DNA of 64,000 nucleotides from Solirubrum puertoriconensis (GTDB lineage: Bacteria; Bacteroidota; Bacteroidia; Cytophagales; Hymenobacteraceae): the NCBI RefSeq assembly GCF_001483135.1, contig NZ_LNAL01000003.1, positions 248,001-312,000 on the forward strand, read 5' to 3'. A program made the translations under genes and the position numbers. Positions 1 to 64,000 of the stretch are shown here, piece by piece. Each line of letters opens with the position of its first letter. The stretch's first letter is position 1. The notes under the pieces are model-generated. The model did not search any database. It was not told the origin of the DNA and saw only the letters and a program-made list of their open reading frames with translations.

Positions 1-1
1 G

Positions 2-757
2 GCTGCGTACTGCGCCAAGGCCGGCCTGCCTGCCACCGTGGTAATGCCGCGCCACACGCCCAAAGCCTTTCGGGAGGAGTGCTACTGGTATGGCGCCGAT
101 GTGCAATTGGTCGATGGCCTCATCAACGACTGCGCGGCCCAGGTGCGGCAAATCAACGCCGATGGCCACTTGCTTGATGTATCGACGCTGAAGGAGCCGT
201 ACCGCATTGAGGGCAAAAAAACCATGGGCTACGAAATTGCCGAGCAGCTGCAGTGGCAATTGCCCGACGTGATAGTGTACCCTGCGGGCGGCGGCACCGG
301 GCTCATCGGCATCTGGAAAGCTTTCGAGGAGATGAAAGCCCTGGGTTGGCTGGCGCCTGATGCCAAGCTGCCGCGCATGGTGGCTGTGCAAGCCACCAAT
401 TGCTGCCCGCTGATCGAGACCATAGCCGGCAATCAGCCCAACAGCCAGCACTACAACGGCCGCCCCACCATTGCCAACGGCTTGGCAGTGCCACGCCCCC
501 TAGGCGAGGCCCTGATGCTGCAAGTACTCGAGCAGTCGGACGGAACGGCCTTGAGTATCAGCGACGACGAAATGGTAGAAGGTATGCGCGAACTGGGCCG
601 CTCCGAGGGCTTGTTTGTGGCGCCCGAAGGCGCCGCCGTGTGGATGGCCACCCGCAAGCTGCTGACAAGCGGCTGGCTGCGCGCCGGCGAGCAGGTGTTG
701 CTGCTAAACACCGGCTCAGGTCAGAAGTACCTCGACAACGTAGAGGGCAGGTATTAG
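2..757 (+). CDS. thrC: Threonine synthase, 3' part (5' end outside window)
   Basis: The reading frame is open from the window edge, so only the last 251 residues are visible. The protein belongs to the fold-type II PLP family. A glycine-rich phosphate-binding loop (YPAGGGTGLIG) lies mid-protein and a C-terminal NTGSGQKYLD motif closes the fold. I read it as threonine synthase, which converts O-phosphohomoserine to threonine; the long segment after the loop fits the thrC-type enzyme better than catabolic threonine dehydratase. The PLP-binding lysine lies upstream of the window and cannot be checked. No partner gene follows: the next 295 bases hold a repeat element. Family confidence is high; choosing threonine synthase over another fold-type II enzyme is less certain. 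Confidence 0.8.
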   Translation, partial: AAYCAKAGLPATVVMPRHTPKAFREECYWYGADVQLVDGLINDCAAQVRQINADGHLLDVSTLKEPYRIEGKKTMGYEIAEQLQWQLPDVIVYPAGGGTGLIGIWKAFEEMKALGWLAPDAKLPRMVAVQATNCCPLIETIAGNQPNSQHYNGRPTIANGLAVPRPLGEALMLQVLEQSDGTALSISDDEMVEGMRELGRSEGLFVAPEGAAVWMATRKLLTSGWLRAGEQVLLLNTGSGQKYLDNVEGRY

Positions 758-793
758 CCATAGCTGCCGGAGCTTCGTCGGCCAACACCCGCC

Positions 794-1011
794 CGTCCTG
801 CTGAACGCAGTCGAAGCATTTCTATGGCTTCTTAAGCGCACATCAGCACCTTCTTCTCTAGAGTGTCATGCTGAGCTTGTCGAAGCATCTCGCGTGCTTC
901 GTTGCAGTCAACCTAGCCCGTCATGCCGAGCGGCAGGCGAGATATTTCGCCTACTGATGCTGGAAAGAATATGCTATCCGACGAGATGTTTCGGCTGCGC
1001 CTCTGCATGAC
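794..1011. repeat. REP-like intergenic repeat with inverted ends
   Basis: The gap between thrC and the M28 peptidase has no credible gene. It holds several related units of the form GTCATGCTGAGC-x-GTCGAAGCATCTC: one at 865-891, a degenerate one at 794-821, and a shortened GTCATGCCGAG unit at 920-930. A reversed copy ends GCATGAC at 1005-1011, so the stretch from 865 to 1011 has inverted ends. From memory, this motif is dispersed between genes in Hymenobacter-type genomes. The likely nature is a REP/MITE-like non-coding element. Confidence 0.65.
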
Positions 1012-1052
1012 GACCTAGGAAAAGCGGTAGATAAATTAGCCCATTTATAGCT

Positions 1053-2054
1053 GTGCGTATTAGTTGGCGCCCTTGGTGGTTGATACTGATTTTATTGGCC
1101 TTAGGGGCCGGTGGGTGGTTGCTCGGTAAGCTTCGGAATGGTTCTTTGCCGTATAGCCTATCCGCAAGCAACCAAGCCAACGCACCTATGCGCGCCAACC
1201 AAGAGCGGCTCTATGCCGATGTCAAGTTCCTGACCTCGCTGCAGCCGGCCCGCAACTACCGCAACCTCACTTCGCTCAACCAAGCGGCCGACTACATCCG
1301 CACCGAATTCGAAAAGTTGGGCTGCCCCGTGGAGGAGCAGTCATTTAAGGCCGATGGCCGCCAGTACCGCAACATCATTGCCACGTTCGGCCCCGCCGAT
1401 GCCGAGCGCATTGTTATCGGGGCGCACTACGATGTGTTTGGTGAGCAGCCCGGCGCCGACGACAACGCCTCGGCCGTAGCGGGCCTGCTCGAAACCGGGC
1501 GCCTGCTGCGGGAGATGCAGGCCAGCCTGCCCCCCGACCGCCGCATCGACCTGGTAGCTTTTCCCAACGAAGAGCCGCCGTACTTCGCCTCGGAGTACAT
1601 GGGCAGCGCCGTGCACGCCAAATCGTTGCACGATGCGGGCGTAACCGTGCGCGCCATGATCTGCTACGAAATGATTGGCTACTTCAGCGACGAGCCCGGT
1701 TCGCAGCGCTTCCCCACCGAAAACCTAGCCGAGCTGTACCCCAACACCGGCAACTTTATTACGGTGGTGGGCCGCGATGGGCAGGAGATGTTTACGCAGC
1801 GTGTGCAGCAACTTATGCGTGCCAAAGCCGAGGTGGATGTGCAGCGCATCAACCTCTCGGCCAAAGCGGGTTTGGCGGGCCTGTCGGATCAGCGCAACTA
1901 CTGGCCCTACGGCTGGAATGCCGTGATGATTAACGATACGGCCTTTCTGCGCAACCCCAACTACCACGAAACCACCGACACCATCGACACACTCGATTTT
2001 CGCCGCATGGCAGAGGTTGTAAACGGTGTGTTGAATGCTGCCCTGAACTTATAA
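1053..2054 (+). CDS. M28 family metallopeptidase, membrane-anchored or exported
   Basis: 333 residues with a GTG start; no in-frame ATG gives a better N-terminus. Residues 8-25 form a hydrophobic segment (signal anchor or uncleaved signal), so the enzyme probably acts outside the cytoplasmic membrane. The zinc-peptidase M28 signature is complete: HYD near residue 125 (first metal ligand), ADDNASA near 135 (bridging Asp), NEE near 172 (catalytic Glu plus ligand), and a late His in NYHETTDTID. M28 enzymes are aminopeptidases or carboxypeptidases; the exact substrate cannot be read from sequence. The 3' end overlaps the convergent alkB-like gene by 6 bases. Confidence 0.85.
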   Translation: MRISWRPWWLILILLALGAGGWLLGKLRNGSLPYSLSASNQANAPMRANQERLYADVKFLTSLQPARNYRNLTSLNQAADYIRTEFEKLGCPVEEQSFKADGRQYRNIIATFGPADAERIVIGAHYDVFGEQPGADDNASAVAGLLETGRLLREMQASLPPDRRIDLVAFPNEEPPYFASEYMGSAVHAKSLHDAGVTVRAMICYEMIGYFSDEPGSQRFPTENLAELYPNTGNFITVVGRDGQEMFTQRVQQLMRAKAEVDVQRINLSAKAGLAGLSDQRNYWPYGWNAVMINDTAFLRNPNYHETTDTIDTLDFRRMAEVVNGVLNAALNL

Positions 2055-3146
2055 AACGGCATAGGTGCGCGTACGGTCGTCCATCACGTGGTGCCACAAA
2101 GGCGGCACCATGGCCAGCAGCAGCATAGTCGGGTAGCCTGCCGGCATTTGGGGGCTGCTGAGCTGGTAGCGCAAGGCATGGTACGGCCGCGAAGCCAGGT
2201 AATGGTGGTCGGAGTGCCGCGTTAGCTCATACAGCAAAATCCGACCTAGGGGCTGTTCGGCATTCCAGGAGTGGTGGGGCTGCACCCGCTCGTACACCCC
2301 GGGTCGCACTTCCCGGCGCTGCAGGCCGTAGTGCTCCACGTAGTTTACGGCCTCAAGCAACGCGCCGCCCAAAAACGCCACTGCCACAAAGCCCACGGCT
2401 GCCTGCCAACCTAGGGCACCGCCAACGCCCAGCACCGCCAGCAGCTGCAGCAACTGAAAGCGCAGCATCTGGTTGTGCCACGGGTGCCATACCGGTTGCG
2501 CGGCGCGTTGCAGGCGGGTAGCCTCGAGCTGCCATGCCGAGCGCCAGCCGCCCCACATCGAGCGAAGCACAAACGGGTAGAGGCTTTCGCCAAACCGCGC
2601 GGTAGCCGAATCGAGAGGTGTGCCCACATGCCTGTGGTGCCCGCGGTTGTGCTCGATGAAGAAGTGCAGGTACAGGCTGCTGAGCAGCAGGGTTTGCGCC
2701 AGCAGTTGCTCCAGCCGGTTGGCGCGGTGCCCAAGCTCGTGCGCCACGTTGATGCCCAGCACCCCGCAGCAAATACCCTGGCTAGCGGTAAGCCCGGCCA
2801 GCTCGGCTGGGCTAAGGGGTTGCACGCTCAGCGTGTGGAGGTACCAGCCCAACAAGCCGTACTGCAGGGGCACATTCAAGTATAGCAGCCCATCGAACAC
2901 CCATGCGTAAGCCGCCGATGTGGTAGCTGGCTCTTCGGGTTGGGGCTTGAGTCTAGGTAATACCCACTGCTCCAGCAAAGGCACTAGGCCAAATACCACC
3001 ACTGGCGTAAGCCACGCCCATGCGCCGTGCCACAGCAAGCCCAACGCTGCGCACACAGGCACAATGTAAGCCAACATGTAGCGTAAGTCGCGCAGCTGCA
3101 TAAACTCGGCAATAGCTTGAAGGCTATACGTAAGATAATGCGACAA
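2049..3146 (-). CDS. alkB: AlkB-type membrane fatty acid/alkane hydroxylase
   Basis: 365 residues with several membrane segments in the first 130 residues and around 230-265. All histidine boxes of the integral-membrane di-iron alkane 1-monooxygenase family are present: HELGH (136-140), EHNRGHH (165-171), NYVEHYG (268-274) and RHSDHH (310-315). The NYxEHYG and RHSDHH boxes are diagnostic for AlkB-like enzymes rather than fatty-acid desaturases. The reaction would be terminal hydroxylation of an alkane or alkyl chain. No rubredoxin or rubredoxin reductase gene lies beside it, so the electron donor must be encoded elsewhere, and the natural substrate could be another alkyl chain. The gene stands alone, convergent with the M28 peptidase. 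Confidence 0.85.
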   Translation of the reverse strand: MSHYLTYSLQAIAEFMQLRDLRYMLAYIVPVCAALGLLWHGAWAWLTPVVVFGLVPLLEQWVLPRLKPQPEEPATTSAAYAWVFDGLLYLNVPLQYGLLGWYLHTLSVQPLSPAELAGLTASQGICCGVLGINVAHELGHRANRLEQLLAQTLLLSSLYLHFFIEHNRGHHRHVGTPLDSATARFGESLYPFVLRSMWGGWRSAWQLEATRLQRAAQPVWHPWHNQMLRFQLLQLLAVLGVGGALGWQAAVGFVAVAFLGGALLEAVNYVEHYGLQRREVRPGVYERVQPHHSWNAEQPLGRILLYELTRHSDHHYLASRPYHALRYQLSSPQMPAGYPTMLLLAMVPPLWHHVMDDRTRTYAVL

Positions 3147-3407
3147 GCGACTGAAAGCAATGCTTTTTATCAGCCACTGGAGGGGTGTTTACATAGTGTT
3201 CGGTATTTAGCAGAGGGTGTATTGATTATAGGGGGGTAATAGCAAATATAATGTATTTTTTGAGACTATTATCCCTATTTAACAAGGGGTGTATAACCAT
3301 ATCATACATATTTTGCTGGATATGCCTATAAAACTTGAGAGTGTTCTTGTTGCAATAGATATTTCGTGAATACATTAGCTAGTGCAGGTAACTAGCCCAC
3401 GCCTCTT

Positions 3408-4784
3408 ATGCCAACCACTACGCCAAAATTGTCCTTTGCTCGTGTAGCCCTAGGTGGGTTGCTGCTGAGTGCAATGATTGCAGCCGCTACGCCTGCCGCA
3501 CACCCGGTAGCCCTGCCCGGCTCGCTAAGTGCTGCCGACATAGCCTGGATGCTAACGGCCACCGCCATGGTGCTGATCATGACGCCGGGGCTGTCGTTTT
3601 TCTACGCGGGTATGGTGCGGCCTAAAAACGTCATCAGCACCATGCTACAAAGCTTTGTGGCCCTGGGTGTCATCACGCTGGTGTTCTACTTTGTTGGTTT
3701 CTCGCTGGCCTACGGCGACTCGTGGCACGGCATCATCGGCTCACCGTTTACCTATGCTTTGCTGCGTGGGGTGGGCACGGCGCCGCACCCGGTGTTGTCG
3801 CCTACTATCCCGTTTATCTTGTACTTCGCCTTTCAGCTGAAGTTTGCCATTATCACGCCAGCCCTAATTACCGGCTCGTTTGCCGAGCGGGTACGCTTCA
3901 AAGGCTACTTGGCTTTCATGGTACTGTTTTGCCTGTTCATCTACTGCCCACTGGCGCACTGGACGTGGCACCCCGAAGGCTTCTTGCGCCGCTGGGGCGT
4001 GCTCGATTTTGCCGGTGGTACGGTGGTGCACATTTCGGCGGGCATTGCGGCGCTGGCTGGGGCCATGGTGCTAGGGCCGCGCACTACGCACCGCAAGTCG
4101 TCGTTCTCAACGCCTAACGTACCGTACGTGCTGCTCGGCACGGGTTTGCTGTGGTTTGGCTGGTTTGGCTTCAACGCAGGCTCGGCCCTAGGTGCCAACG
4201 AGCTGGCCGTAACGGCTTTCGTGAACACCAACCTGGCTTCGGCGGCGGCGTTGTTTGCCTGGCTGCTGGTAGAGGTGGTGCGCGGTGGCAAGCCCACGGC
4301 CGTGGGTGCTTGCACCGGCGCCGTGGTAGGGCTGGTGGCTATTACGCCCGCGGCCGGCTACGTAAGCTACGGCCAAAGCGTACTGTTCGGCGTGCTGGCG
4401 GCGCTTATCAGCCACGCGGCGGTGCACTGGCAAAACTCCCGCACCACCATCGACGATACCCTTGATGTATTTCCGTGCCACGGCCTAGGTGGCATTGTGG
4501 GCATGCTGCTCACGGGCGTATTTGCCGACAAGGTGGGCCTGATACATGGCACCGCCACGGTGTTTGGCTACCACGTGCTGGGCTTGCTGATTGTGGTGGG
4601 TTACTCGTTTGGCGGCGCTTGGGCGCTGCTGAAGCTAACGGACCGCTTTTTTGCCCTGCGCGTGAAAGCCGCCGACGAAGACCTAGGACTCGACCTGAGT
4701 CAGCACGAAGAATCGACGTACCACGTGGATGAGGATTTTGAGCGCACCTACCGCAAGGAGCTGCAAGCCTCCAGGGTTGGGTAA
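3408..4784 (+). CDS. amt: Ammonium transporter, Amt/MEP/Rh family
   Basis: 458 residues. A signal-like first segment (about residues 14-30) is followed by the eleven-helix Amt core. Family hallmarks are visible: MTPGLSFFYAGMVRPKN in the first core helices, and the two pore histidines in LAHW (His184) and PCHGLGG (His358). The C-terminal tail ends in a conserved LDLSQHEESTYH segment, the part that contacts PII proteins in this family. No glnK/PII gene adjoins, unlike many proteobacterial amt loci. Upstream (3190-3400) is an AT-rich 200-base stretch that probably carries the promoter and nitrogen-control signals; I find no clean TAnnTTTG there. A strong hairpin terminator lies about 80 bases after the stop. 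Confidence 0.93.
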   Translation: MPTTTPKLSFARVALGGLLLSAMIAAATPAAHPVALPGSLSAADIAWMLTATAMVLIMTPGLSFFYAGMVRPKNVISTMLQSFVALGVITLVFYFVGFSLAYGDSWHGIIGSPFTYALLRGVGTAPHPVLSPTIPFILYFAFQLKFAIITPALITGSFAERVRFKGYLAFMVLFCLFIYCPLAHWTWHPEGFLRRWGVLDFAGGTVVHISAGIAALAGAMVLGPRTTHRKSSFSTPNVPYVLLGTGLLWFGWFGFNAGSALGANELAVTAFVNTNLASAAALFAWLLVEVVRGGKPTAVGACTGAVVGLVAITPAAGYVSYGQSVLFGVLAALISHAAVHWQNSRTTIDDTLDVFPCHGLGGIVGMLLTGVFADKVGLIHGTATVFGYHVLGLLIVVGYSFGGAWALLKLTDRFFALRVKAADEDLGLDLSQHEESTYHVDEDFERTYRKELQASRVG

Positions 4785-4866
4785 CAAGTATTCGTGCGCG
4801 CCCGCTGCTCCGGAGAATGGGAAACTCGGGGCCGCACGAACCTAGGGGGAAGGTGTAGAAGGGAGA

Positions 4867-4897
4867 AAAGCCGCCAGCGGGGAAACTGGCGGCTTTT
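4867..4897 (+). terminator. Intrinsic terminator after amt
   Basis: A perfect 12-bp stem (AAAAGCCGCCAG, 4867-4878, with its complement at 4886-4897) and a 7-nt loop. The stem end supplies TTTT, followed by cgtttt. It sits between amt and the opposing DUF167 gene and could serve both strands. Confidence 0.85.
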
Positions 4898-5054
4898 CGT
4901 TTTCTGCGGTCCGCGGTTCAATGCTCACTGTGTTTGAAAGCAAACCAGTGCCGCTTGCAGCTTTGTGGTGTTGGGTGGCTAAACGCTATGAGTTTTGGCA
5001 CAGGCAACCATATGGCTAGCTCAGCGCCCTCAGCCACGATCTAAGGGGAGGCGG

Positions 5055-5324
5055 CTATTGCGCGTGGGCAAGCAAGGCGCTGCGCAGCTCCGCATCGGAA
5101 AGGCCGGGTACATCAACCTTTTTGAACGGCGCCGTGTGGCCGCTGAGCAGGGTAAGGCTGCTGCGGGGTTGGGCCAGCACCTCGGCCAAAAACCGCAGCA
5201 AGCAGTCGTTGGCTTTGCCATCCTGCGCAGGGGCGTTCAGCCGAATGGTAATGCTGCCATCGGGCGCTAGCACAAGGGCGTTGTGGCAGGCGTTGGGTTT
5301 GGCTTTGAGGTGCAGGGTGGCCAT
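5055..5324 (-). CDS. DUF167/YggU family protein
   Basis: 89 residues, full length for the DUF167 (YggU) family. Recognisable features are the central DGKAND segment (around residue 35), a following helix with FLAEVL, and the LTLLSGHTAPFKKVDV strand-turn-strand that ends the fold. The biochemical function of the family is not established. It is the last gene of a minus-strand run (endonuclease III homologue, small membrane protein, DUF167), 6 bases after the stop of the small membrane protein. Confidence 0.85.
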   Translation of the reverse strand: MATLHLKAKPNACHNALVLAPDGSITIRLNAPAQDGKANDCLLRFLAEVLAQPRSSLTLLSGHTAPFKKVDVPGLSDAELRSALLAHAQ

Positions 5325-5330
5325 GCCGGG

Positions 5331-5534
5331 CTAGGTGGTGGGCGAGTTGTAGGCGTCGTACACGTTCCAGGCCCACACGGCAAAAGGAACAATTATCGTC
5401 CACCAAAGCAAAAAGCCCACCACACCGCTGATTACCCAAATAACCACGGCTTTCAGAATCTGCCCTTTGATGAGCTGGCCCAAGCCCGGGAATATAGCCG
5501 ACAGCAAAGCCGGCATGCCGTAAGTAGGTTTCAT
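5331..5534 (-). CDS. Small TM2-like membrane protein
   Basis: 67 residues starting at MKPTYGMPALLSA. Longer in-frame starts run back into the neighbouring gene and give an unlikely Cys/Arg-rich N-terminus. The sequence has a loop-like IFPGLGQLIKGQ motif followed by two hydrophobic helices (about residues 24-40 and 43-58) and a polar YDAYN tail. The PGLGQ-x-KGQ motif before paired helices resembles TM2/DUF5683-type small membrane proteins, whose function is unknown. It lies 31 bases after the endonuclease III gene in the same direction. Confidence 0.65.
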   Translation of the reverse strand: MKPTYGMPALLSAIFPGLGQLIKGQILKAVVIWVISGVVGFLLWWTIIVPFAVWAWNVYDAYNSPTT

Positions 5535-5565
5535 GGCTGAAGAGGAAAGAAGGTAATACGTATGC

Positions 5566-6312
5566 TTACGCAGCCGGTGCCATCGAAGTGCTGCCGCGTA
5601 GCTGTTGGCCGGTGGGGCACACATCGAGCAGCACGCAACGGCCACACGCCGGCGAGCGGTAATAGCAGCACTTTTGCCCATGAAACATCAGGGCCTCGTG
5701 GTGGTCATACACCAGCTGCGCATCCCAATCGGGTGGCAACAAGGCCTCAAGCAGCGCGTGCGAGGCTTCAGTGCCTACTTTGGGGCCGATGAGACCTAGG
5801 CGTTGGGCTACGCGGTGGTGGTGGCTATCGACGGGCATGGCCGGGCGGCGCAGCGTACTGAATAGCAGCGTGGCCGCGCTGGTTTTGGGCCCCACGCCGG
5901 GCAAGGTTTCAAGCCACTCACGGGCTTCGGGTACGGGCAGCTCACCCAGGAACTCGAGTGCCAGGTGCCCTTGCAGTCGCTCGGTTAGCTCGCGCAATAT
6001 GGCCTGTATGCGCGGGGCCTTTTGCTCGGGCCAGGTGCACGGGCTGATGGCTTCTTCGACTTCGGCCGTGGGAGCATCGCGCACTTCGGCCCAGGTAGTA
6101 AACCGGGCCCGCAGCTGTTGGTAAGCCCGGTGCGAATCCTGGTTGCGCGTGCGGTGCGACAATACGGCGCTGATCAGCTCGCTCATAGGGTCTTTCACGC
6201 TGAAAAACCGGAAGGGTGCCCCGTAGAGCTGGCACAACCGCTCGTGCGCTAGCAACGCCAGCGCTTGGCGGTGCGCAAAGTCGGTATCGGGAGTTGGTAT
6301 GGCGGCAGACAC
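5566..6312 (-). CDS. nth: Endonuclease III-like DNA glycosylase/AP lyase
   Basis: 248 residues with HhH-GPD architecture. The hairpin LPGVGPKTSA carries the lysine that attacks the damaged base, VDSHHHR supplies the catalytic Asp, and near the C-terminus C-x6-C-x2-C-x5-C coordinates a 4Fe-4S cluster. The family removes oxidised pyrimidines from DNA in base excision repair. The protein is slightly longer than E. coli Nth (about 211 residues), with extra residues at both ends. A canonical Nth is usually more conserved, so this may be a divergent paralogue with a different lesion preference. Confidence 0.85.
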   Translation of the reverse strand: MSAAIPTPDTDFAHRQALALLAHERLCQLYGAPFRFFSVKDPMSELISAVLSHRTRNQDSHRAYQQLRARFTTWAEVRDAPTAEVEEAISPCTWPEQKAPRIQAILRELTERLQGHLALEFLGELPVPEAREWLETLPGVGPKTSAATLLFSTLRRPAMPVDSHHHRVAQRLGLIGPKVGTEASHALLEALLPPDWDAQLVYDHHEALMFHGQKCCYYRSPACGRCVLLDVCPTGQQLRGSTSMAPAA

Positions 6313-6421
6313 AGCTTGGCAAACGCAAGAGCCGGCTGCGCGGTTGGCCTAGGCTCCAAAAACCAAGGCCGGCCCCTAGGTGGGTACCGGCCATGGTGTG
6401 GGAGGGAAAAAGGGGTGGCGC

Positions 6422-7333
6422 TTAGCGCGTGGCTGCCCCGGAGTAGTTGTACATCTGCACGGCTTGCTTCAGCTTGTTGGCCTGCGAGCCGCTCACGAAG
6501 GTGGGCACCAGCAACACCGGCACCGAAATGAACACCAGCGGCGAAATGCGCTGCGCGTTGCCGCTGAAAGTGTTCAGCATACCCGCCACCAGCATACCGC
6601 CGCCCACAATGTAGCCCGCGGTGCTGATGCGCTTGAGGCGAGCCGCATCGCGCAATAGCTCCGAGCTGCCGGGGTTATCGGAAAGTGCCACGCTCAGGTT
6701 GCGCAGGTTCATGTCCTGAATCGGGCCGCCATCCTTGCTGAAGTACTCCGTTTTCACGGTGCGGTAGCCACCGCCGTAGGGGTAGCCGCCGTAGCCCCAC
6801 GGGCTACCAAAACCGTAGCGGCCCATGCCGTAGCCGTAGGGCCCGTAGCCCCAAGGCCCGCCACCAAAGCCCCCCGGCGACCACGACTGCGAGGTGATGG
6901 AATACGTGCTGATGCGGCCTTGCTTTTCGCGGCGCAGGGTAGCTTCGCGCCGCGAGCCCGGCAGCGTGGTACGAACGTAGTGGCCCGTTTCGTCCTGGTA
7001 AAATTTAATCTGATCCAGATCGAAACGCTGTTGGCCGTTGAGCAGCAGGTACGAGCGGCCAATTACCGGCTGGCGCATCTCTACATCGTCGGCGGCATAT
7101 ACCTGGCCCGATTTCAGGCCGATGCGGTAGCGCGGTTGTGGTGCTTGCTGTGGCGGAGCCACTTGAGCTGGGGCAGGCTGAGCTGGTGCGGGTGCCGGCG
7201 TAGCTACGCTCTGGCGCACGGTGTCGGCTACGGAAGGAGGCGTGCTCAGCTGGCGCGGGGCATCCTGCGCCACGGCAGCAGCCGCGGAGGCGCCGGCAAG
7301 GCCGGCGGCGAGCAACATTGAACGAATGTTCAT
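6422..7333 (-). CDS. Exported Gly/Tyr-rich protein of unknown function
   Basis: 303 residues. A signal peptide (about residues 1-22, ending AAAAVAQ) is followed by a Pro/Ala/Gln linker (about 30-65), a compact region with YRIGLKSGQVYAADDVE that looks like a small beta fold, then a Gly/Tyr/Pro-rich stretch of about 40 residues (around 155-195). Two hydrophobic segments (about 240-258 and 267-284) end the protein. I do not recognise the family. The signal and C-terminal hydrophobic helices suggest an envelope protein. It is a single gene upstream of the nth group, with a 108-base gap. Confidence 0.7.
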   Translation of the reverse strand: MNIRSMLLAAGLAGASAAAAVAQDAPRQLSTPPSVADTVRQSVATPAPAPAQPAPAQVAPPQQAPQPRYRIGLKSGQVYAADDVEMRQPVIGRSYLLLNGQQRFDLDQIKFYQDETGHYVRTTLPGSRREATLRREKQGRISTYSITSQSWSPGGFGGGPWGYGPYGYGMGRYGFGSPWGYGGYPYGGGYRTVKTEYFSKDGGPIQDMNLRNLSVALSDNPGSSELLRDAARLKRISTAGYIVGGGMLVAGMLNTFSGNAQRISPLVFISVPVLLVPTFVSGSQANKLKQAVQMYNYSGAATR

Positions 7334-7645: not shown

Positions 7646-7697
7646 CCAACGGCAACGGGGCCGCCGAAAGCTAATTCGGCGGCCCCGTTGCCGTTGG
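7646..7697. terminator. Perfect 23-bp hairpin after the response regulator
   Basis: Arms 7646-7668 and 7675-7697 pair without a mismatch around a 6-nt loop (AGCTAA). It starts 20 bases after the response-regulator stop. There is no T-run on either side, so it is not a textbook intrinsic terminator. It is one of four hairpins of almost identical size in this window (see findings). Confidence 0.75.
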
Positions 7698-7717
7698 TAA
7701 GTACGTTACTACACGCT

Positions 7718-8134: not shown

Positions 8135-8157
8135 CGGGAAAGGAGGTGGTGAGGAAA

Positions 8158-8165: not shown

Positions 8166-8189
8166 AGGTACTGTTGCCGCAGCCCTAGG

Positions 8190-55629: not shown

Positions 55630-58600
55630 TTACAACTTCATCAGCTTTTGGGTGGCCGTGCCGCCGCCGGGCAGCTCCACCTGCAGGTGGTACACCCCTT
55701 GGCTTAGCTTGCCTAGGTCGAGGGTGTGGCGCAACTGGCCGGCACCTTTGGTGAGCTGCTCAGCCAGCACGGTGCGGCCCACGGCATCGGTTACGCGCAC
55801 CTGCATAGTACCGCGTAAGCTGTTGTCCACATTCAGCTCGAAACGGCCGGTGCTGGGGTTGGGGTACACCGATACACCTTGCAACTGCTTGGGGCTGAGG
55901 CTGCTGGTTATGGCATCTTGCACGGTGCAAAGCTCTAGGGTCCAGTTGGTGAAGGAGCCGGCATTGCCCGGGGCTACATCCAGTACGTGCAGCGTCCATG
56001 GCCCATTGGCTGGGTTGCCTCTGAACGCGGCCAGTGCACTTTCGGGTCGGTAGGTGCCGCCGGTGTTAATGGGGCAGGTTATACCCGTTGGGGCCGCATC
56101 GTCGAAGCTGGCGTTGATGTTGGCTGTGCCCGGGCACGGCGACGAGCCCAGGCGCACGCGGATGTTGTTGGGCCCGCGTAGCTCCAGCACCAGCTCGCCT
56201 AGGTCGCGGTGCGTAATGCGAAGGTTGCGCACCCGCACCTGGGACACCACATCGGTGCTGTTTACCGTGATGGTGGAAGTAGCCGTGGCGTTGGTTGAGT
56301 TGGTAATAGCAGCTGGTAAATCGGTGGGGGTGTAGGTAGTGCAGGCAAGTTGGCCCACGTAAAACTGTTCGCCCGCCGACCAGTTGCCCACCCCGCACTC
56401 GGCCGTACCGCGCACGCGCCAGTAGTAGCGGCCGTTTTCTTGCAGCGTGGTAGCGGCTGTGTAGGAGTTTGTGGTAAGGCCCGTTTGGCTGATCACTAAG
56501 TTGCTGAAGCCCGCATCGGTGGCTACTTGCAGGTCGTAGGAGGTTGCGCCCTGTATGGCCGACCACGTAAACCTAGGCTGCGGCAATGCCCGCAGCGAGT
56601 TGGCAGCGGGCTGCTGCAGGGTGGGCGGCACGTTGGCCGAGTTGCGCACCACCAAACTAATTACCTGCGTTTCGGTGGTACTGCCGTTGGTGCCCGATAC
56701 CGTGATGGGGTAGGTGCCCGAGGCGGTGGTGGCCGCCGAGCTGATAGTAACCGAAGTGGTGCTGCCGGCGGCTACCTGGGTGCTGCCGAAGTTTACGCTA
56801 ACGCCTGCCGGTATACCCGTAGCCGACAAGGTTACTTGCCCCGTAAAGCCTAAAATCTGACCTACGCTGAGGCTGCAGCTTACCGAGCCGCCGGGGCAAA
56901 AAGACTGGGTGCTGTTGGCGCAGTCACTTGCCAGAAAGAAGCCCGGCCCGGTTGGCGTTTGCAGCGTAAAGTTTTGGTTGGAGATGTCGAAGAAGATGCC
57001 ACCAGTGGCTTTTACCTTCAGCCGCACTTGCGTGGAGGGGGGCACGCCTGCCGGCACCGTTACTTGCTCGGCGCCATCGTTGGGCGTACCGGCCGCCAGG
57101 GTGTAGGGGTACGTCAGGCCACCGTCAACAGAAAGCAAAATATCTACCCGCGAGGCACTAACAGGGGCCGCCGTTGTATTGGCCACATCCCAAGTAACTT
57201 GTTGCGGCACGGTGGTGCGCCAAGTAACGTTGGTATTGGGTGCCGTAACGACGAAGGGCCCGGCGTTATCAGCTACGGGTACCGTAATGGCATCGTAGTT
57301 GGTAGCGCCGCCCCCTGTGCGGTTGTCGCGCACGGTTAGCCGGAAGTTGAGCGTGCGGCCGTACTGGGGCAGCACCTCCCCGATGGTCGGCAGGTTGTTC
57401 AGCAAAGCTCCAAGCCGCGGAAAAACACGGGTAGGATCGGTAGTGGGCGGAAACGAGCGGAAAATAGGCGCATCGCCCTGGGGTTGATCGGGGTTGCCGC
57501 CAGGCCCTAGGTCCAGCTCTTCCCAACAGTAAGTGAGGGCGTCGCCATCGGGGTCCGAAGCGGTACCTGTCAGCTCGAACGGCGTGCCCTTCGGGATTAC
57601 GTAATTGGCGCCAGCTTCTACTACTGGTGGCCGGTTGCCCGTGTTGCTGATGCTGGCGCAAGCACCTAGGGTGGTTACGTGGTCGAGAATTTCGTCGTAG
57701 CTAGCCGTGTGAAAATAGGCATCGGAGTTGGCCTGCAGGTTGTAGGGCGCGCAAATGCCCGCGTAGGCCATGATGGTGGAGCCAGAGCCCGGCTCGTAAG
57801 CTGTGGAGCCGGAGCGGTTGCCCACCCGGCAGTTATTAGCATCGGTGGCGTTGAAGGTGTGATTGGCGCCAAACTGGTGCCCCATCTCGTGCGCCACAAA
57901 GTCAATATCGAAGGCGTCGCCCACCGGGTTCGGAAGGCCTGTGGTGGCCCGGGCTTTGTTGTTGCCTACGCACACCACACCTAGGCCCGCCAGGCCGCCA
58001 CCATCGGTCGTAAACACGTGGCCAATGTCGTAGTTGGCCGGCCCGATGCGTTGGTCGGTAACCTGCTGATTTGTGTTGAGAGTCGTCTCTGAGCTTTCGT
58101 TGGTGTACGGGTCGGTAGCCGGATCCAGGAAGATCAGCTGATCGGTGTTGGCAACAAGCCGGAGCCGAATCGATAGTTCTTTCTCGTATACCCCACTCAC
58201 GCGGTTCACCGAGGCCACAATGCCAGCCAGGGCGCCTTCGGTTGTTCCGCCTTTTTTGGCGGCGTACTCACCTGTGCAGGCCATGGCCAAACGGTAGGTA
58301 CGCAGCTGGGTGCCGTTGCTGCGGGCGGCCGTGCCGTTTTGCAACGGGCTAAGCCGCTGGTTTAGCACCGAAGGCGTTTGGGTAAGGCACACGCGCCGGG
58401 CTAGAGCCGCATCGTTGATGTCGCGCTTGTAAAACACCAAGTGTTCTTGCCCTCCCGCGGCGGGGTCGACATACACCGTATTGCCCGCCGACAAAATCAT
58501 GGCATGCAGGCCCGCCCCCGACACATCGAAGTAGGCAGTGGCGGTTGGGTCGTCGATACCTTGGGCGGAATACGTTTTGATGGCAGGGTAGCGCGCTGCC

Positions 58601-58947
58601 AATTCGGGCGCCATAACCTGGGTTTCGGTTACCCTGAACCGGCCCGAGCTGCCATCGGGGAGGGGTAGGGCCACTACCGTACCGGAGCGGCGGGCGTTGT
58701 TGCCATCGGGCGCCTGGGCTAGTGCAGCGCGCAAGTTGGCCATTTGCACCGTAACTACCCTATATCTGCCTAGGGCTTGCGTGGTGCGGCGGGCAGCAGC
58801 AGATAGCTGAGTGGTTTTGGCATCGGCCCATAACACCCGCTGCGCCGAGGCCGAAAAAGGCAAACCAACACCAGCTAGGAGTAGGCCACGCAGCACTGCG
58901 CCACGCAGCGCTGGCCAAGGCAGGGTAAAGGATGTGCGCATAGGCAT
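55630..58947 (-). CDS. Secreted reprolysin-like metalloprotease with P-domain and T9SS tail
   Basis: 1105 residues. Signal peptide (about 1-36), a propeptide (about 37-210), and a metzincin catalytic domain with the zinc site HEMGHQFGANH (353-363) and Met-turn TIMAYAG (about 393). Fibronectin/Ig-like repeats follow, one with WSAIQGATSYDLQVATD. A proprotein-convertase-type P-domain (about 890-1010, RDLGELVLELRGP) comes next, and the protein ends with a type IX secretion sorting domain (GVSVYPNPSTGRFELNV to the KLMKL tail). It is probably secreted and surface-attached to degrade proteins. Motif order fits known Bacteroidota M12B-like secreted proteases. Confidence 0.93.
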   Translation of the reverse strand: MPMRTSFTLPWPALRGAVLRGLLLAGVGLPFSASAQRVLWADAKTTQLSAAARRTTQALGRYRVVTVQMANLRAALAQAPDGNNARRSGTVVALPLPDGSSGRFRVTETQVMAPELAARYPAIKTYSAQGIDDPTATAYFDVSGAGLHAMILSAGNTVYVDPAAGGQEHLVFYKRDINDAALARRVCLTQTPSVLNQRLSPLQNGTAARSNGTQLRTYRLAMACTGEYAAKKGGTTEGALAGIVASVNRVSGVYEKELSIRLRLVANTDQLIFLDPATDPYTNESSETTLNTNQQVTDQRIGPANYDIGHVFTTDGGGLAGLGVVCVGNNKARATTGLPNPVGDAFDIDFVAHEMGHQFGANHTFNATDANNCRVGNRSGSTAYEPGSGSTIMAYAGICAPYNLQANSDAYFHTASYDEILDHVTTLGACASISNTGNRPPVVEAGANYVIPKGTPFELTGTASDPDGDALTYCWEELDLGPGGNPDQPQGDAPIFRSFPPTTDPTRVFPRLGALLNNLPTIGEVLPQYGRTLNFRLTVRDNRTGGGATNYDAITVPVADNAGPFVVTAPNTNVTWRTTVPQQVTWDVANTTAAPVSASRVDILLSVDGGLTYPYTLAAGTPNDGAEQVTVPAGVPPSTQVRLKVKATGGIFFDISNQNFTLQTPTGPGFFLASDCANSTQSFCPGGSVSCSLSVGQILGFTGQVTLSATGIPAGVSVNFGSTQVAAGSTTSVTISSAATTASGTYPITVSGTNGSTTETQVISLVVRNSANVPPTLQQPAANSLRALPQPRFTWSAIQGATSYDLQVATDAGFSNLVISQTGLTTNSYTAATTLQENGRYYWRVRGTAECGVGNWSAGEQFYVGQLACTTYTPTDLPAAITNSTNATATSTITVNSTDVVSQVRVRNLRITHRDLGELVLELRGPNNIRVRLGSSPCPGTANINASFDDAAPTGITCPINTGGTYRPESALAAFRGNPANGPWTLHVLDVAPGNAGSFTNWTLELCTVQDAITSSLSPKQLQGVSVYPNPSTGRFELNVDNSLRGTMQVRVTDAVGRTVLAEQLTKGAGQLRHTLDLGKLSQGVYHLQVELPGGGTATQKLMKL

Positions 58948-59162
58948 CTAGTTTCGAATGCGGCTTCAACAGTTAGAAAATCAAGTTACAGCTTTTACCG
59001 CCATCCTACGGCCATCATCGGCACCCGCCTTGTAAGGCACAACGTAGCTACGCGCCCACAGTTGCGGGTGAGTAGAGGCTGCTTTAGGTGTAATGCCCAA
59101 GGCCCGAAGATTAGTTGCCAAACTGCTGCTGCAAAAGACGAAAAAACGTAACCGCAAAAAAG

Positions 59163-59189
59163 AACAGCCACTCCGGTGGAGTGGCTGTT
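59163..59189 (-). terminator. Terminator after the DUF3857 operon
   Basis: A 12-bp perfect stem AACAGCCACTCC / GGAGTGGCTGTT with a 3-nt loop; on the minus strand it is followed by cTTTTTTG. It lies 25 bases after the stop of the 59214-61166 gene. Confidence 0.9.
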
Positions 59190-59213
59190 TACGTTCATAT
59201 AGTTGGGGTGCTA

Positions 59214-61166
59214 TCAGGACTCTGGCCGCACCAATACCAGCTGCATGCGGTCGGCTTTGCTGATGCGCTGGCGAAATGCCTCATACGCTTCGTACTGAGC
59301 TGCCTCGAAGTGGCCATCAGGCATTTGCAACCGGCGAATGTACTGAATTGTGCCATCCTGAAGCACTTGTACCTGAGCCTCATAGCTGCCAAATGCAGTT
59401 CGTAGTTGCACCGGCGCGGGTACCGATTCGGGCTTGTAATCAGCCGGTACCTTAAATCGAACAGTGTCGGCATCGGTAAAGGGCAGGTGCAGCACCAGTG
59501 GAGTTTGCCGTGCACCCACACTAGGAGCAGGGGGGGGCAGGCGGTTGAGCAGGTTGGGTACCAAAAACAGACGCCGCCCCGTGAGCGAGGCGTAGCTTGG
59601 CAGTGCGAGCGTAAGGCGTTCGGTAACGGCTGGTAGTGCACCTTGGCGGTTGGGCTGCCAGCTGCTCTGCTCGATGGTAACGGTTGGCAAACCTAGGCGG
59701 GCATACGCACGCTTGCGTTGCTCATCAGCCGGCAGTGCGCTAATCATCTGCGCAAGGGCATCTTGCTGTAGGCCCGAAGAAAGCGTGCGCACGGTAGCGC
59801 GGCCATGGCCTTTGTCGTCGATTACCACCTCGGCATTGCGAAACTGGCCGTTTACAGCCGCGGCATAGCTGGGCGTGCGCACGAGCTTGCCTCCTTGGGG
59901 CGTGAGCAGCAGGGCATGGCGCCCGCCCGTAAACGAGCCTAGGTAACCAAACGCCTCGCTCTGCGAAGTGCACTCCAGCCACACCGTGTCCTTAGGCATG
60001 GGCACGCACAAAATCATGTGGTTGAACTGGTTGCTAGGGAACGAGGTGCGAATAGCCGCTCGCTGCTCGCCGGCACCAATCATGGCGCAGAAACTCTCCA
60101 CCCCGGCGGCGCGCAGCAGCGCCATGCAGTAGTTGGAGAGGGCCTTGCAGTCGCCGTAGCCGGTGCTGGCTACCGTGCTGGCCGGAAACGCCTGCCATCC
60201 CCCAATACCCAACTGCACCGACACGTAGCGGGTAGAGTTTTGCAGGTATTCGTACACCTTGCGTACCCGTTGCCGTGGTTCGCTGATGTCCTTTACCAAA
60301 GCCGCTACTTTCGCCTTTATCTCGGGGCTCAATTCGGCGCGGTCCTGGTTCAGGTCGTACTCCCACTTACCTAGGCCTTGCCAGCTGGTCATGTCGCCGC
60401 GGTGGCCTTGTACTTCGAAGGCTGTTGGGGCGGTATACACCGTAGGCACCTGCTCGGCCAAAGGCGGGCTGTAAGGCTCGCGCTCCAGGGCCGGCAGGCT
60501 GGTAAGCTGCCAGGCATACACCAACTGGTTGCCTTGCTGACTTTTGGTTACGGCGCCGCCCTGCGGCAGTCGCTCCTCGAGGTAGCGCAGCGGCAGCTCG
60601 GGCGGGGTGGTTACGCGCAAGGTGGCGTGCTCCAGGCTTACGTGCTCTTCATCCTGCGGACTCCAGGCAGGGAAGTTCAGCGTGTTGTCGGAGCTGTATT
60701 CGTAAGTGAAGTCGGCAGTGTAGGGGTAACGCGGCTGGCGTAGGTCGCCCACACGCACGCGGTTGTCTTCGAAAAGGCTGGCGCCGCTTACGTTGCTGTA
60801 GTCCTTGATGTCGGCCGTACGCAGGGTGCGCACCACGCGGCCATCGGCATCGTACACGGTGCCGCGCAGGTAGCTAACCTGCGTCAGCTTATCGTAGGGC
60901 ACCACAGCCACGCCCCAATTGTCGCCTTGTTCGTCGAGCACGGTTACCACGCGGTGCACCGTGTACACCATGCGGCCGGCGGCTTTCACTGTTAGGATAT
61001 CATCCTGCTGCCGAATAACCGCGTGCGCATTTTGGCGTAGCGCGGCCGGAATGCTGCTCACCGGCCATTGCAGCGGCTGCCCCGCTTGCGCTAGCAGCGG
61101 CCCCAAGCACAGGGCCGCTGCTAGCGCAAAGCGCGAAGAAATAGAATGCTGACCTAGGAGGCTCAT
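59214..61166 (-). CDS. DUF3857 transglutaminase-like protein, catalytic Cys present
   Basis: 650 residues with a signal peptide (about 1-28). A DUF3857 beta-sandwich (about 45-230) precedes a transglutaminase-like domain (about 260-400) with Cys340 in STGYGDCKALSNYC and His383 in QFNHMIL; a C-terminal beta region follows. The Cys-His pair indicates a potentially active cysteine enzyme. Function is unknown. The start overlaps the stop of the next gene upstream (ATGA), forming an operon with a Cys-lacking paralogue. Confidence 0.87.
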   Translation of the reverse strand: MSLLGQHSISSRFALAAALCLGPLLAQAGQPLQWPVSSIPAALRQNAHAVIRQQDDILTVKAAGRMVYTVHRVVTVLDEQGDNWGVAVVPYDKLTQVSYLRGTVYDADGRVVRTLRTADIKDYSNVSGASLFEDNRVRVGDLRQPRYPYTADFTYEYSSDNTLNFPAWSPQDEEHVSLEHATLRVTTPPELPLRYLEERLPQGGAVTKSQQGNQLVYAWQLTSLPALEREPYSPPLAEQVPTVYTAPTAFEVQGHRGDMTSWQGLGKWEYDLNQDRAELSPEIKAKVAALVKDISEPRQRVRKVYEYLQNSTRYVSVQLGIGGWQAFPASTVASTGYGDCKALSNYCMALLRAAGVESFCAMIGAGEQRAAIRTSFPSNQFNHMILCVPMPKDTVWLECTSQSEAFGYLGSFTGGRHALLLTPQGGKLVRTPSYAAAVNGQFRNAEVVIDDKGHGRATVRTLSSGLQQDALAQMISALPADEQRKRAYARLGLPTVTIEQSSWQPNRQGALPAVTERLTLALPSYASLTGRRLFLVPNLLNRLPPPAPSVGARQTPLVLHLPFTDADTVRFKVPADYKPESVPAPVQLRTAFGSYEAQVQVLQDGTIQYIRRLQMPDGHFEAAQYEAYEAFRQRISKADRMQLVLVRPES

Positions 61167-63214
61167 GACTTACGTTTCAGCACAAGCTTCTCGGTCTGTT
61201 TGGCCAGCATGCGCGTGTAGAACTCGCGCAGTGCAGGATACTCTTCGCTCAGGTACAGCGCGCGGCTCAGCACCATACGGCTGGTAATCTGCAGCTTGTT
61301 GCCCATGGGAGTAATGCTGAACAAGAACCGACCGCCGCCATCCGGCAACTCCAACGCGGTGCTCTTGGGCATTTCCTCGATAGAGTAGTTATCCGGGATG
61401 GTCAGCGTTACCATGTTGGTTTCCTCTAGCAGGGTACCGAAATCGACCGGAAAGCGGCGCTCAGTGAGCAAGAATGGGTTGCTGGCTTGGTTGAGGGTTT
61501 GCAGCACGTTGAGGTAAATGGTACCTAGGGGCTGCTCCGATTCGCCGGGCACGCGTACGTCCAAGTCGAGCGATAACGGCTTGGCTAAGGCATCCACGTT
61601 CTGGAAGGTGAACTTGTCGATCTTCCAGCCGCCGTTGTTCTTCAGCAGGCTCTCCACATATTTCTTCTCGCCCTGTTCGCGCAAGGTGTTGCGCTGCATT
61701 AAGCCTAGGTAGCCTGCTCCTTCGTCGCGCACTTTGCCGGTAAGGCTGCCGCGCTCGTCTAGCGTAAGCTGGGCCGAGCGAAAATGCACAAAACGGAACT
61801 TCGATTGGAGCGGGACCCAATCGCCTTCACTTGTGCTGGTAATCAGGCGGCCCTGCCCGTTGAGGCACGAAGCGGGCAGCATGCCAAACGGTGCCAACTC
61901 CTGGGTGGCATCGGCCAGCACCTGCTGGCTATCGGGCAGCTGCACATGCGCCACTACGTAGTTAAAACGCGAAAGCAGCGGGAAAATGGTGTTGACGTAG
62001 CCGTGCTCGCGCGTGCTCAAAATTACGGGGTTGGCTTTCAGGCCGGCGTCGCGCAGCAGCGTGATCAGCAACAAGTTGGCATCGGCCGCCGAGCCACGGT
62101 GCTGCTCCCAGGTTTTCCGGATGGAGCCCGTCGCGTACAGGCCCGTGCCGCTGGCCTTCACATTGCGTCGTACCAAATCGTGCACGGCCGCCGCGCGCTC
62201 AACTTCGTTGGGATGTTTTTGAACAATGGCGGCTATTTCGGACTTCAAAAAACCGCCTTTGCGCAGCTGGCCACCAAAGTTTTCGTGGTTGAGCAGCTCT
62301 TCCTGCATTTTGGGCCACGTGCTGCTCATGTTACGGTAAGGCTCGTCGGGCCACTTCAAGCCGGCCAGCTCAAAATCGAGGCGCGAAACGTAGTCGCGCG
62401 TGGTGGTCATGTAGGGCTCTTCGCGCATGGCCGGCACGTTTTCCATAGCCCAACGGTAATTCATAACCCTGGGCGTAACCGTGGCGCTACCGCCCGAGGT
62501 ACGTCCGCCATCCAGGCCGGGCGTAATTTCCGAAGACCAGCGAATGGTGTACTGCCCCGTGCCTTCGTTGCGCTCTTGTACCTTCAGCGGCTCATAGCCC
62601 TGCCACAGCTGCTTGTAGTCGAAGTACTCCGGAATGGCAGCTCGATACTCGCTCCAGCGCACCGGAATGGTATGCTGAAATTGCCAGTCCTGAAAGTTGA
62701 ACAGGAAGTCCGACGTAAGCGTGTATGTGTACTCAATAACAGAGCCCTCGCGCACGGCGGGCATGGTAAACTTGCGCAGTGTTATGTTCTCGGATGCCTT
62801 CTCGGTGAAGGCATTGCTCGTTTCCAGCTTCACCTTCTCAACCTGGCCGTTGGCGCCCATGTTGTAGGTGTAGCCGTGCACACCGCTGAGCTTTTCGTCG
62901 TCGGAGCCCTTGTGGTAGAGCGGCACTTGCACGTCGGCCCACTCGTAGCCGCCTTTCTTCAGAATTTTGATGCGGGTAACGCGCTCAAATACGTACTGAA
63001 AGTTGCCTTTAGGGCCTACGTTAAAGCGCGTGCGGCCAAAATCGCACAGGATGACGGCGTTGGCTGCACTGTCTGCTTTAAAGGCAGCAGCGTCGAACTC
63101 CTTCGGGTCGATTTTGCCAAATTTAATCGGATCGGCTTGGCCTAAGGCGGGCAGGAAAGCGGCGCTGCCTAGCGCACCAGCCAAGGTTAGCAACAGGGGT
63201 AAACAGTGCTTCAT
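61163..63214 (-). CDS. DUF3857 transglutaminase-like protein, catalytic Cys missing
   Basis: 683 residues with a signal peptide (about 1-26). DUF3857 domain (about 60-270) and transglutaminase-like domain (about 300-420). Where the catalytic Cys should be, the sequence reads GSAADANLLLI (around residue 374), so it cannot act through the usual Cys. The rest of the fold is kept, including TREHGYVNTIFP. The C-terminal 200 residues resemble the partial paralogue at the window end. It is coupled to the Cys-containing gene by a 4-nt overlap. Confidence 0.87.
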   Translation of the reverse strand: MKHCLPLLLTLAGALGSAAFLPALGQADPIKFGKIDPKEFDAAAFKADSAANAVILCDFGRTRFNVGPKGNFQYVFERVTRIKILKKGGYEWADVQVPLYHKGSDDEKLSGVHGYTYNMGANGQVEKVKLETSNAFTEKASENITLRKFTMPAVREGSVIEYTYTLTSDFLFNFQDWQFQHTIPVRWSEYRAAIPEYFDYKQLWQGYEPLKVQERNEGTGQYTIRWSSEITPGLDGGRTSGGSATVTPRVMNYRWAMENVPAMREEPYMTTTRDYVSRLDFELAGLKWPDEPYRNMSSTWPKMQEELLNHENFGGQLRKGGFLKSEIAAIVQKHPNEVERAAAVHDLVRRNVKASGTGLYATGSIRKTWEQHRGSAADANLLLITLLRDAGLKANPVILSTREHGYVNTIFPLLSRFNYVVAHVQLPDSQQVLADATQELAPFGMLPASCLNGQGRLITSTSEGDWVPLQSKFRFVHFRSAQLTLDERGSLTGKVRDEGAGYLGLMQRNTLREQGEKKYVESLLKNNGGWKIDKFTFQNVDALAKPLSLDLDVRVPGESEQPLGTIYLNVLQTLNQASNPFLLTERRFPVDFGTLLEETNMVTLTIPDNYSIEEMPKSTALELPDGGGRFLFSITPMGNKLQITSRMVLSRALYLSEEYPALREFYTRMLAKQTEKLVLKRKS

Positions 63215-63299
63215 AAGTAAGAGGTTAAAGAAAAATCGGGGAGTGGTAAGCCTGCATAGCCAGCCCTAGGTAGCTCGGCGCAACCGCAGGAGCAGCAGG

Positions 63300-64000
63300 C
63301 TAATTGGTGCGGCGGAGCACCAGCGGTTCGGCGTGCTTGGCCACCGAGCGGGTAAACAGCTCGCGCAGGGCGGGGTACTCGTGGGGCAGGTACTGCGTTT
63401 TGCGCAGCTGCATGCGGCTGGTAAGGTGCAGCGTGCTACCCACTTGTTTTACTTCGTAGAGGTAGCGCCCGTGGCCGTTAGGCAGTTCTACCTGAGCGGA
63501 TTTGGGCAGCTCCTCCACGGCAAAGTTGGTGGGCAGCGTCAGCTGCACGGAGGTTGTAAACTCCTGCAGCGTACCAAAATCGACGGGGAAAGTGCGTTCG
63601 GCGTGGGCGAATGGGTTTTGGGCAGCGGTAAACAGCTGCATCACCGGTAAATACAACTGCTGCGCTGCGTCTGTGGCCGAGCTGGGCACCGTAAGGTTGG
63701 TTTCAACGAGCAACGCTTGATCCAGCTTTTCGAGGTTCAGTACTTTGGTGCCGCTCAGCGCCCAGTCGGGGTGTTGCTGCGCCAAGGCTTTGAGGTAAGC
63801 CTGCTCGCCGCTGGCTGCTACCTTGTTGCGCTCGGCCAGCCCGGCGTATCCGTTGTACTCCTCGCGCATATTGCCGCGCATTGCGCCTTGCGCATCGAGG
63901 CTAAGCTGGGCAGTGGTAAAGTGGGCGTGGCGTTGCCGGGGAGCGAGCGGCACCCACTTGCCACCGTCAGACGTGATCAGCCGGCCTTGGCCGTTGAGGC
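63300..64000 (-). CDS. Third DUF3857-type protein, C-terminal part (5' end outside window)
   Basis: At least 233 residues, open to the window edge. The visible part aligns by eye with the last third of the 61163-63214 protein: LNGQGRLITS near the edge, FPVDFGTLQEFT, FAVEELPKSAQVELPNG and the closing EYPALRELFTRSVAKHAE. The catalytic region is outside the window. It is transcribed in the same direction, 85 bases upstream of the second paralogue. Confidence 0.85.
   Translation of the reverse strand, partial: LNGQGRLITSDGGKWVPLAPRQRHAHFTTAQLSLDAQGAMRGNMREEYNGYAGLAERNKVAASGEQAYLKALAQQHPDWALSGTKVLNLEKLDQALLVETNLTVPSSATDAAQQLYLPVMQLFTAAQNPFAHAERTFPVDFGTLQEFTTSVQLTLPTNFAVEELPKSAQVELPNGHGRYLYEVKQVGSTLHLTSRMQLRKTQYLPHEYPALRELFTRSVAKHAEPLVLRRTN

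Follow-up and report, generated by a model that had tools for sequence, protein, structure and literature searches.

Why does a single six-base palindrome, CCTAGG, recur so densely in the DNA of a bacterium of the Hymenobacter group, and by what process are its copies made and kept? The question is raised by a stretch of 64,000 nucleotides of Solirubrum puertoriconensis (contig NZ_LNAL01000003.1, positions 248,001 to 312,000; hereafter the window), in which an earlier reading of the letters, hereafter the original prediction, had counted 104 copies of the word, among them those at 499, 3449, 8184, 28968 and 34656, and had compared it with HIP1, the highly iterated palindrome (HIP) of cyanobacteria. 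The count proved exact and all five coordinates were right. The evidence described below indicates that a sequence-specific process probably reshapes whole chromosomes in nine Hymenobacter-group genomes, one of which is the genome of the window (G000; 4.80 Mb, 8 contigs). Tentatively, and short of even confidence, we favour the reading that a lineage-specific and still active process, a drive by sequence-specific biased repair or short conversion, turns near-misses into CCTAGG and protects the existing copies. The best matches of P0004, a protein encoded in the window, are from Hymenobacter (the top named relative, Hymenobacter sp. CRA2, shows 79% identity), and the host is therefore placed with Hymenobacter and not with the cyanobacteria.

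Excess of CCTAGG in the window and across genomes

In 100 dinucleotide shuffles of the window, CCTAGG occurred 13.64 times on average (sd 3.48, largest 25), and Markov models predicted 20.4, 13.4, 13.0 and 24.6 copies per strand at orders 0, 1, 2 and 3, respectively. The order-3 z score of 22.6 is the highest among the window hexamers with an expected count >3, whereas the order-4 expectation reaches 80.9 because the 5-mers belong to the motif themselves. The GC content, first given as about 61%, measured 59.0%. As had been claimed, most CTAG tetranucleotides lie inside the word (104 of 175) and the usual frame, according to crude open reading frame (ORF) calls within the window, is xxC-CTA-GGx (76 sites; 8 read CCT-AGG and 20 fall outside called ORFs). 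The additional claim that highly expressed genes avoid the word is unsupported, since the only genes so described that were examined, atpD and fabF (41094-42347), offer too few in-frame CCTNGG positions: CTA occupies one of three in atpD and none of two in fabF, where one CTT and one CTC are found.

Enrichment at the level of whole genomes was judged by the reversed word GGATCC and by sister genomes instead of a genome-wide third-order Markov count. Confinement of the enrichment to the window would have refuted the original prediction and was not observed: 6,212 CCTAGG are present across G000 (1,293 per Mb) vs 136 GGATCC, and avoidance of CCTAGG as a restriction target was not seen in the G000 sample, where the word reaches 7.1 times its order-2 expectation. 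Nine of 204 genomes of the family (G000, G004, G007, G030, G036, G072, G088, G104, and G123) contain 5,325-8,806 copies, corresponding to 745-1,481 per Mb (rounded genome sizes were used except for G000), four are intermediate with 1,209-2,331 (G041, G043, G129, and G137) and the remaining 191 have 54-888. In a sample of the order (390 genomes, 79 of them from this family) the 311 genomes of other families reach at most 1,349 copies in 4.0 Mb. Two genomes of family f9 (genus g40) show raised counts, G244 with 1,349 in 4.0 Mb and G343 with 1,138 in 3.4 Mb, the controls being 610 and 546.

The high state is scattered among relatives. Among 80 named loci around the P0004 orthologue, those of H. 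cavernae (L027, 28 copies), H. crusticola (L029, 22) and H. polaris (L055, 32) are rich and the other 77 have 0-5 copies each in 5-22 kb; CCTAGG is the top palindrome in these three loci as well as in the window. Identical P0004 rows suggest that G030, G036, and G072 correspond to H. cavernae, H. crusticola, and H. polaris, respectively. On a FastTree phylogeny of P0004 (103 rows, 91 different, with 8 rows from genomes of intermediate or slightly raised count excluded from the tally of changes) at least four changes to the high state are needed, leading to G000/G004/G007, G030/G036/G123, G088/G104, and G072. The clade of the four intermediate genomes was examined for decay of the word, and its 20-kb samples contain just 3-13 sites. 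An artefact of composition, codon usage or dipeptide content was rejected as an origin of the excess, considering that the reversed word is 46-fold rarer in G000, that enrichment is missing in sister genomes and that site density is higher in intergenic (2.6-3.5 per kb) than in genic DNA (1.1-1.5 per kb).

Gain and loss of sites

G004 and G007 align collinearly with the window (about 88% identity), and turnover was counted in three-genome alignments, in positions where two genomes agree and the third is compared. Within the window, 15 of 64 instances of CCCAGG or CCTGGG had become CCTAGG, compared with 28 of 195 over 312 kb of G000, and in the same 312 kb CCTAGG was retained in 549 of 678 cases. 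Since synonymous CTG/TTG contexts dominate the list of C-to-T changes, a codon-matched test was needed, and Leu codons in C-CTN-GG were compared with all other Leu CTN codons in about 305 kb aligned among three genomes. Entry from CTG into CTA was observed in 26 of 58 codons in this context vs 205 of 5907 elsewhere (x12.9, p 4e-22), and entry from CTC or CTT in 3 of 49 vs 45 of 2937 (p 0.04). Exit was depressed both to CTG (53 of 489 vs 52 of 211; x0.44, p 9e-6) and to CTC or CTT (10 of 489 vs 15 of 211; x0.29, p 0.002). Exchanges that do not involve A did not differ significantly between the two contexts (T>C and T>G were each seen in 0 of 19, and the factors were x1.0 for G>C, x1.1 for C>G and x0.85 for C>T), the lowest p value being that of G>T (x3.55, p 0.055). 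In terms of usage, CTA, CTG, CTC, and CTT account for.64,.24,.07, and.05 of the codons in C-CTN-GG, compared to.06,.61,.23, and.10 elsewhere, so that CTA is favoured over each alternative by roughly 1 to 1.5 orders of magnitude. For transitions, the entry and exit factors give a calculated geometric mean of about 2.4; selection alone allows at most 1, which points to a component acting at the level of mutation. The "mutational drive" of the original prediction was therefore right in that turnover is active and strongly biased to CCTAGG, but not as simple C-to-T mutation, given that transversion exits are also suppressed.

Sites are largely independent of each other: in the window's clade,.60-.70 of the potential positions are occupied (the filled fraction) wherever the nearest other site lies 50 to 1,600 bp away. 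The value drops at closer range (.32 for 0-50 bp, n 71) and at distances over 1,600 bp (.38, n 8), and the sample of G036/G123 was too small to read. Variation in the counts per 2 kb falls a little short of Poisson (variance/mean.75-.85 in three samples) and no spacing rule was found beyond this mild evenness. Two models were discarded. A mismatch-repair model of density, with one site for every 1 kb or so, disagrees with the flat filled fraction of the window's clade over 50-1,600 bp, and for import from divergent donors the excess change is at most borderline within 30 bp of new sites (6.9% at 3-30 bp vs 6.3% for control words, p 0.054), with none at 31-250 bp. In another pair of high genomes, G088 and G104 (L223-L230; 87.7% identity), 91 of the 122 sites in each are common, and unshared sites read CCTAGA or TCTAGG in the other genome 13 times; one such case is listed for the window's clade.

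A proposed drive by biased repair

The process behind this turnover, we infer, is a short-patch, sequence-specific biased repair or gene conversion. In a duplex with a mismatch, an enzyme would read the unit on one strand and have the other strand rewritten; conversion would be commonest for the frequent G:T mismatches, leading from CCTGGG or CCCAGG to CCTAGG. The enzyme, or its DNA mark, would lie outside the five methylase families searched (see below), and the driver would probably have been acquired by gene transfer in each clade. Besides the exchange rates, the near-constant filled fraction in the window's clade, the mostly unenriched one-mismatch neighbours, the higher site density in intergenic DNA and the patchy phylogeny count in favour of this reading. 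The more specific version is possible but doubtful: an enzyme that moves horizontally and needs no methylase would write its recognition unit across the host chromosome by biased mismatch repair, a molecular drive on a DNA word instead of a gene, with at least four gains in one bacterial family and changing flank dialects.

Several observations weigh against this reading. A pure fixation bias, by selection or by uptake, would yield most of the pattern, and the sole argument for a mutation-level step is the raised transition rate. The raised transversion entry into CTA is weakly significant, with three events, and counting by majority among three genomes can inflate entry rates. In the unbiased scan of hexamer contexts CCCAGG is not among the top seven C-to-T contexts listed, and conversion of CCCAGG/CCTGGG to CCTAGG is less frequent over the 312 kb than in the window by itself. 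With distance, the filled fraction of G088/G104 climbs slightly, from.75 to 1.0. The borderline excess of change near new sites counts here too, and the gain at 29118 in G004, around which six differences from G007 and G005 cluster, has more the look of imported sequence. The driver gene is not found among five DNA-methylase families and Vsr. Finally, we know of no mismatch-repair enzyme with such a rule.

Alternative explanations

Uptake drive would act through a competence receptor that prefers DNA bearing the unit, so that such alleles are imported more often, as occurs in Neisseriaceae and Pasteurellaceae. It is an unlikely explanation that nonetheless accommodates several features of the unit. 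According to passages of PMC3630211, Neisseriaceae have eight dialects of the DNA uptake sequence (DUS) around a conserved core, and kingDUS occurs 5,918 times in 2.4 Mb; the CCTAGG units share with them a similar density, a conserved core and flank dialects that follow phylogeny. Almost all sequence information lies within 8 bp (at most 0.15 bit outside). Among 557 sites of G000 (433 + 124) exactly one of 5'A and 3'T is present in 474, both in 20 and neither in 63, while independence would predict about 119 with both and 277 with one; because the flanks are not independent, the unit of the window's clade is an asymmetric ACCTAGGS around the palindromic core. The core is conserved elsewhere and the flanks vary with the lineage (samples are small for some clades): CCCTAGGS is preferred in H. 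polaris/G072, ACCTAGGT, ACCTAGGC, and ACCTAGGG in H. cavernae/H. crusticola, and G088/G104 are mixed, a 5' T being rare everywhere (4-7%). The intermediate clade (L195-L198 = G043, G041, G137, and G129) favours GCCTAGGC (15 of 26 sites) as a further flank dialect; in the part of PMC1939737 consulted, this word is tabulated as under-represented in one genome, with 151 expected and 0 seen.

The absence of a consistent strand skew also fits uptake: ACCTAGGS counts on the two strands (+/-) in seven samples were 117/128, 37/47, 54/43, 212/158, 185/182, 31/34, and 44/30 (replication origin unmapped), with G004 taken by itself giving p 0.006 (212/158) and the five window-clade samples pooled giving p 0.18. 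So do the bias against all alternative bases, the borderline excess of change near new sites and the scarcity of sites on the small additional contigs of G000 and G004. Among the contigs sampled from these two genomes, the larger ones have 13-17 sites per 10 kb. There are 2 sites in the 12.5 kb of contig C4 of G000, which is plasmid-like (Rep3 and TraG/TraD-like genes), a character established for it alone among the small contigs, and 1, 0, and 1 in contigs C2 (20 of 42 kb), C3 (20 of 32 kb) and C4 (11 kb) of G004, respectively.

A candidate for the uptake machinery lies in the window itself. P0004 is a 716-amino acid ComEA-like protein with a helix-hairpin-helix (HhH) and a presumed outer-membrane barrel, and its profile matches are just under the cut-off for PF12836 (E 5e-6) and far under it for TIGR01259 comE (E 3e-5). 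It may be a DNA-uptake component of Bacteroidota, though it is found in 23 of 23 genomes searched, both high and low. The ten sites previously noted in its gene do span 1.8 kb from first to last, and this density reflects many Leu-Gly pairs, as all ten in-frame CCTNGG positions of the ORF read CTA.

Other observations do not fit uptake. The raised transition rate is one of them, and beyond 50 bp the proximity of other sites does not lower the filled fraction in the window's clade, whereas saturation at one site per fragment would be expected. One-mismatch neighbours of CCTAGG in high genomes stand at 0.27-1.72 of the order-2 expectation, mostly near low-genome levels (the main exception is CCTAGC, at 1.72 in the cavernae/crusticola sample), unlike those of uptake sequences as described in sections of PMC1939737. 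The unit is also shorter (8 bp) and palindromic in its core, and no account of natural transformation in Hymenobacter was prominent in the literature searched.

Selection for the sites themselves, for instance as binding sites of an abundant chromosome protein or as a recombination signal, is distinctly unlikely. The shift against every alternative base, with other exchanges little changed, is what a fixation bias predicts, and the near-independence of each site agrees with it. It would require, on the other hand, thousands of separately selected sites in four lineages, and the calculated transition rates exceed the limit that selection allows. Chi and KOPS show strand preference, while CCTAGG has no consistent one and its flanks in the window show no clear preference for gene orientation, as judged by the crude ORFs. 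The chromosome-organisation signal offered by the original prediction may apply, but neither a consistent strand skew nor a spacing rule beyond the mild evenness speaks for it.

A methylase-linked HIP, in which CCTAGG would be modified by an orphan methylase and spread through mismatch repair, as Elhai proposes, is improbable despite the resemblance. Passages of Elhai (2015; PMC4390886) give 500-2,500 copies per Mb for cyanobacterial HIPs, patchy between relatives, and describe the alternate HIPs GGCGCC, rCCGGy, and GCsGC, each with a candidate methylase, and the GmeC repair model. HIP1 proper (GCGATCGC in cyanobacteria) is not matched in this Hymenobacter host, where the window holds one CGATCG, far under expectation, and lacks TCGCGA. 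The HIP1-like label holds in the sense of an alternate HIP, since CCTAGG is an iterated outlier palindrome with a palindromic core, patchy among relatives and genome-wide at a density inside the cyanobacterial range in all nine genomes. The differences are that its hosts are Bacteroidota, that its flanks are lineage-specific and partly asymmetric, that occupancy in the window's clade hardly depends on the distance to the next site and that neither the core nor the main form ACCTAGGG/CCCTAGGT contains the GC step required by the GmeC model.

No fitting methylase was found in G000 either. Profile searches for six families covered 16-20 genomes each, the nine high ones in every case (contig C1 of G000, 2,498 bases and all N, lay outside these searches). 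Matches to PF00145 and to Vsr were each present in two of the nine, to PF01555 in four and to PF02086 in none; PF02384 and PF07669 were each found in eight (the PF07669 match of G004 being under the cut-off) and also in the three low genomes searched. G000 has no match to PF00145, PF02384, PF02086, PF07669 or Vsr, and its sole PF01555 enzyme lies on the plasmid-like contig beside a SmaI-type nuclease (Table 1). With no family in all nine high genomes, m5C, N6/N4, N6_Mtase, D12 and Eco57I methylases and Vsr were rejected as a common driver, and the matching methylase or Vsr-like gene foreseen by the original prediction did not materialise among these families. An all-against-all comparison of 42 PF02384 and PF01555 loci (PF00145 and PF07669 loci excluded) revealed two pairs shared by two lineages each and one group, of the MmeI type, about 50% identical across three marked lineages (G007, G072, and G043). 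This MmeI-type (type IIL) enzyme was discarded as well: in a search of 204 genomes, G000 gave no hit and many low genomes proved to contain close relatives of it. The lack of a methylase does not by itself remove CCTAGG from the HIP class, because some HIP1-rich genomes have no CGATCG methylase according to the same parts of PMC4390886.

The weakest candidate, a pure C-to-T hotspot at CCCAGG by deamination of the Dcm-without-Vsr type, is very improbable: the 28 of 195 conversions of CCCAGG/CCTGGG and the 26 of 58 changes of CTG to CTA in context would suit it, but it is largely contradicted by the suppressed transversion exits (p 0.002), together with the raised transversion entries (p 0.04, 3 events) and the lack of a PF00145 match in seven of nine high genomes. 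Very-short-patch repair by the Dcm/Vsr system targets G:T mismatches in sequences around CTAG and influences how often words occur; the CCTAGG bias runs in the opposite direction, towards CTAG, touches transversions too, and occurs where Vsr and an m5C methylase are not common to the high genomes.

Significance and features of the window

The origin of "highly iterated" words is still debated for HIP1, and the main proposal, as set out in the available text of Elhai (2015; PMC4390886), invokes methylases. CCTAGG offers a replicated natural experiment, with at least four gains beside low sisters and a bias that can be measured base by base, and the link to a methylase fails in G000 as far as tested. 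If the driver were confirmed, it would represent a new way for an enzyme to remodel genome sequence, codon usage and restriction profile. In the open literature searched, no report was found of CCTAGG enrichment in Hymenobacter or of any HIP in Bacteroidota; in the portions of the methylome paper PMC7988955 that were available CCTAGG stands only inside a reference title, and PMC5317091, in the part seen, deals with a different, 18-base palindrome. The features of the window, and the methylase locus of G000, are collected in Table 1.

Table 1. Coordinates of the features discussed (positions in the window unless a contig is given)
Feature	Position	Strand	Remarks
Array of 104 CCTAGG	499..63270	none	First 499-504, last 63265-63270; expectation 13-25
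P0004, 716-aa ORF, ten sites	53389..55539	+	ComEA-like helix-hairpin-helix and presumed outer-membrane barrel
Example CCTAGG site	18771..18776
Site found in G000 only	44381..44386		Window CCTAGGT vs CCTGGGC in G004, G007, G005; core and flank differ
Site found in G000 only	27493..27498		Window ACCTAGG vs GCCCAGG in G004, G007, G005
Longest gap between neighbouring sites	40058..43101		3,038 bases, 40058 to 43096; contains fabF
Locus of the sole PF01555 (N6/N4 methylase) of G000	L129 (G000:C4) 5493-7271		Beside SmaI-type nuclease (PF17411, E 2e-76)

Other palindromes also depart from expectation in these genomes. TGCGCA is over-represented in the window (64 vs 31.9 expected), as in many other Hymenobacter loci. 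The control word GGATCC is nearly gone from many Hymenobacter-like genomes of genus g4 of 4-7 Mb, with no copy in G113 and G121 and one in G023, G026, G082, G084, and G114, compared to 100-300 in others, which looks like restriction avoidance. In seven loci of Pontibacter (L052, L053, L056, L058, L059, L060, and L063) GTATAC is the top palindrome, with 19-29 copies vs 5.7-7.7 expected per 20-22 kb; this sister genus may thus have a weaker iterated palindrome of its own.

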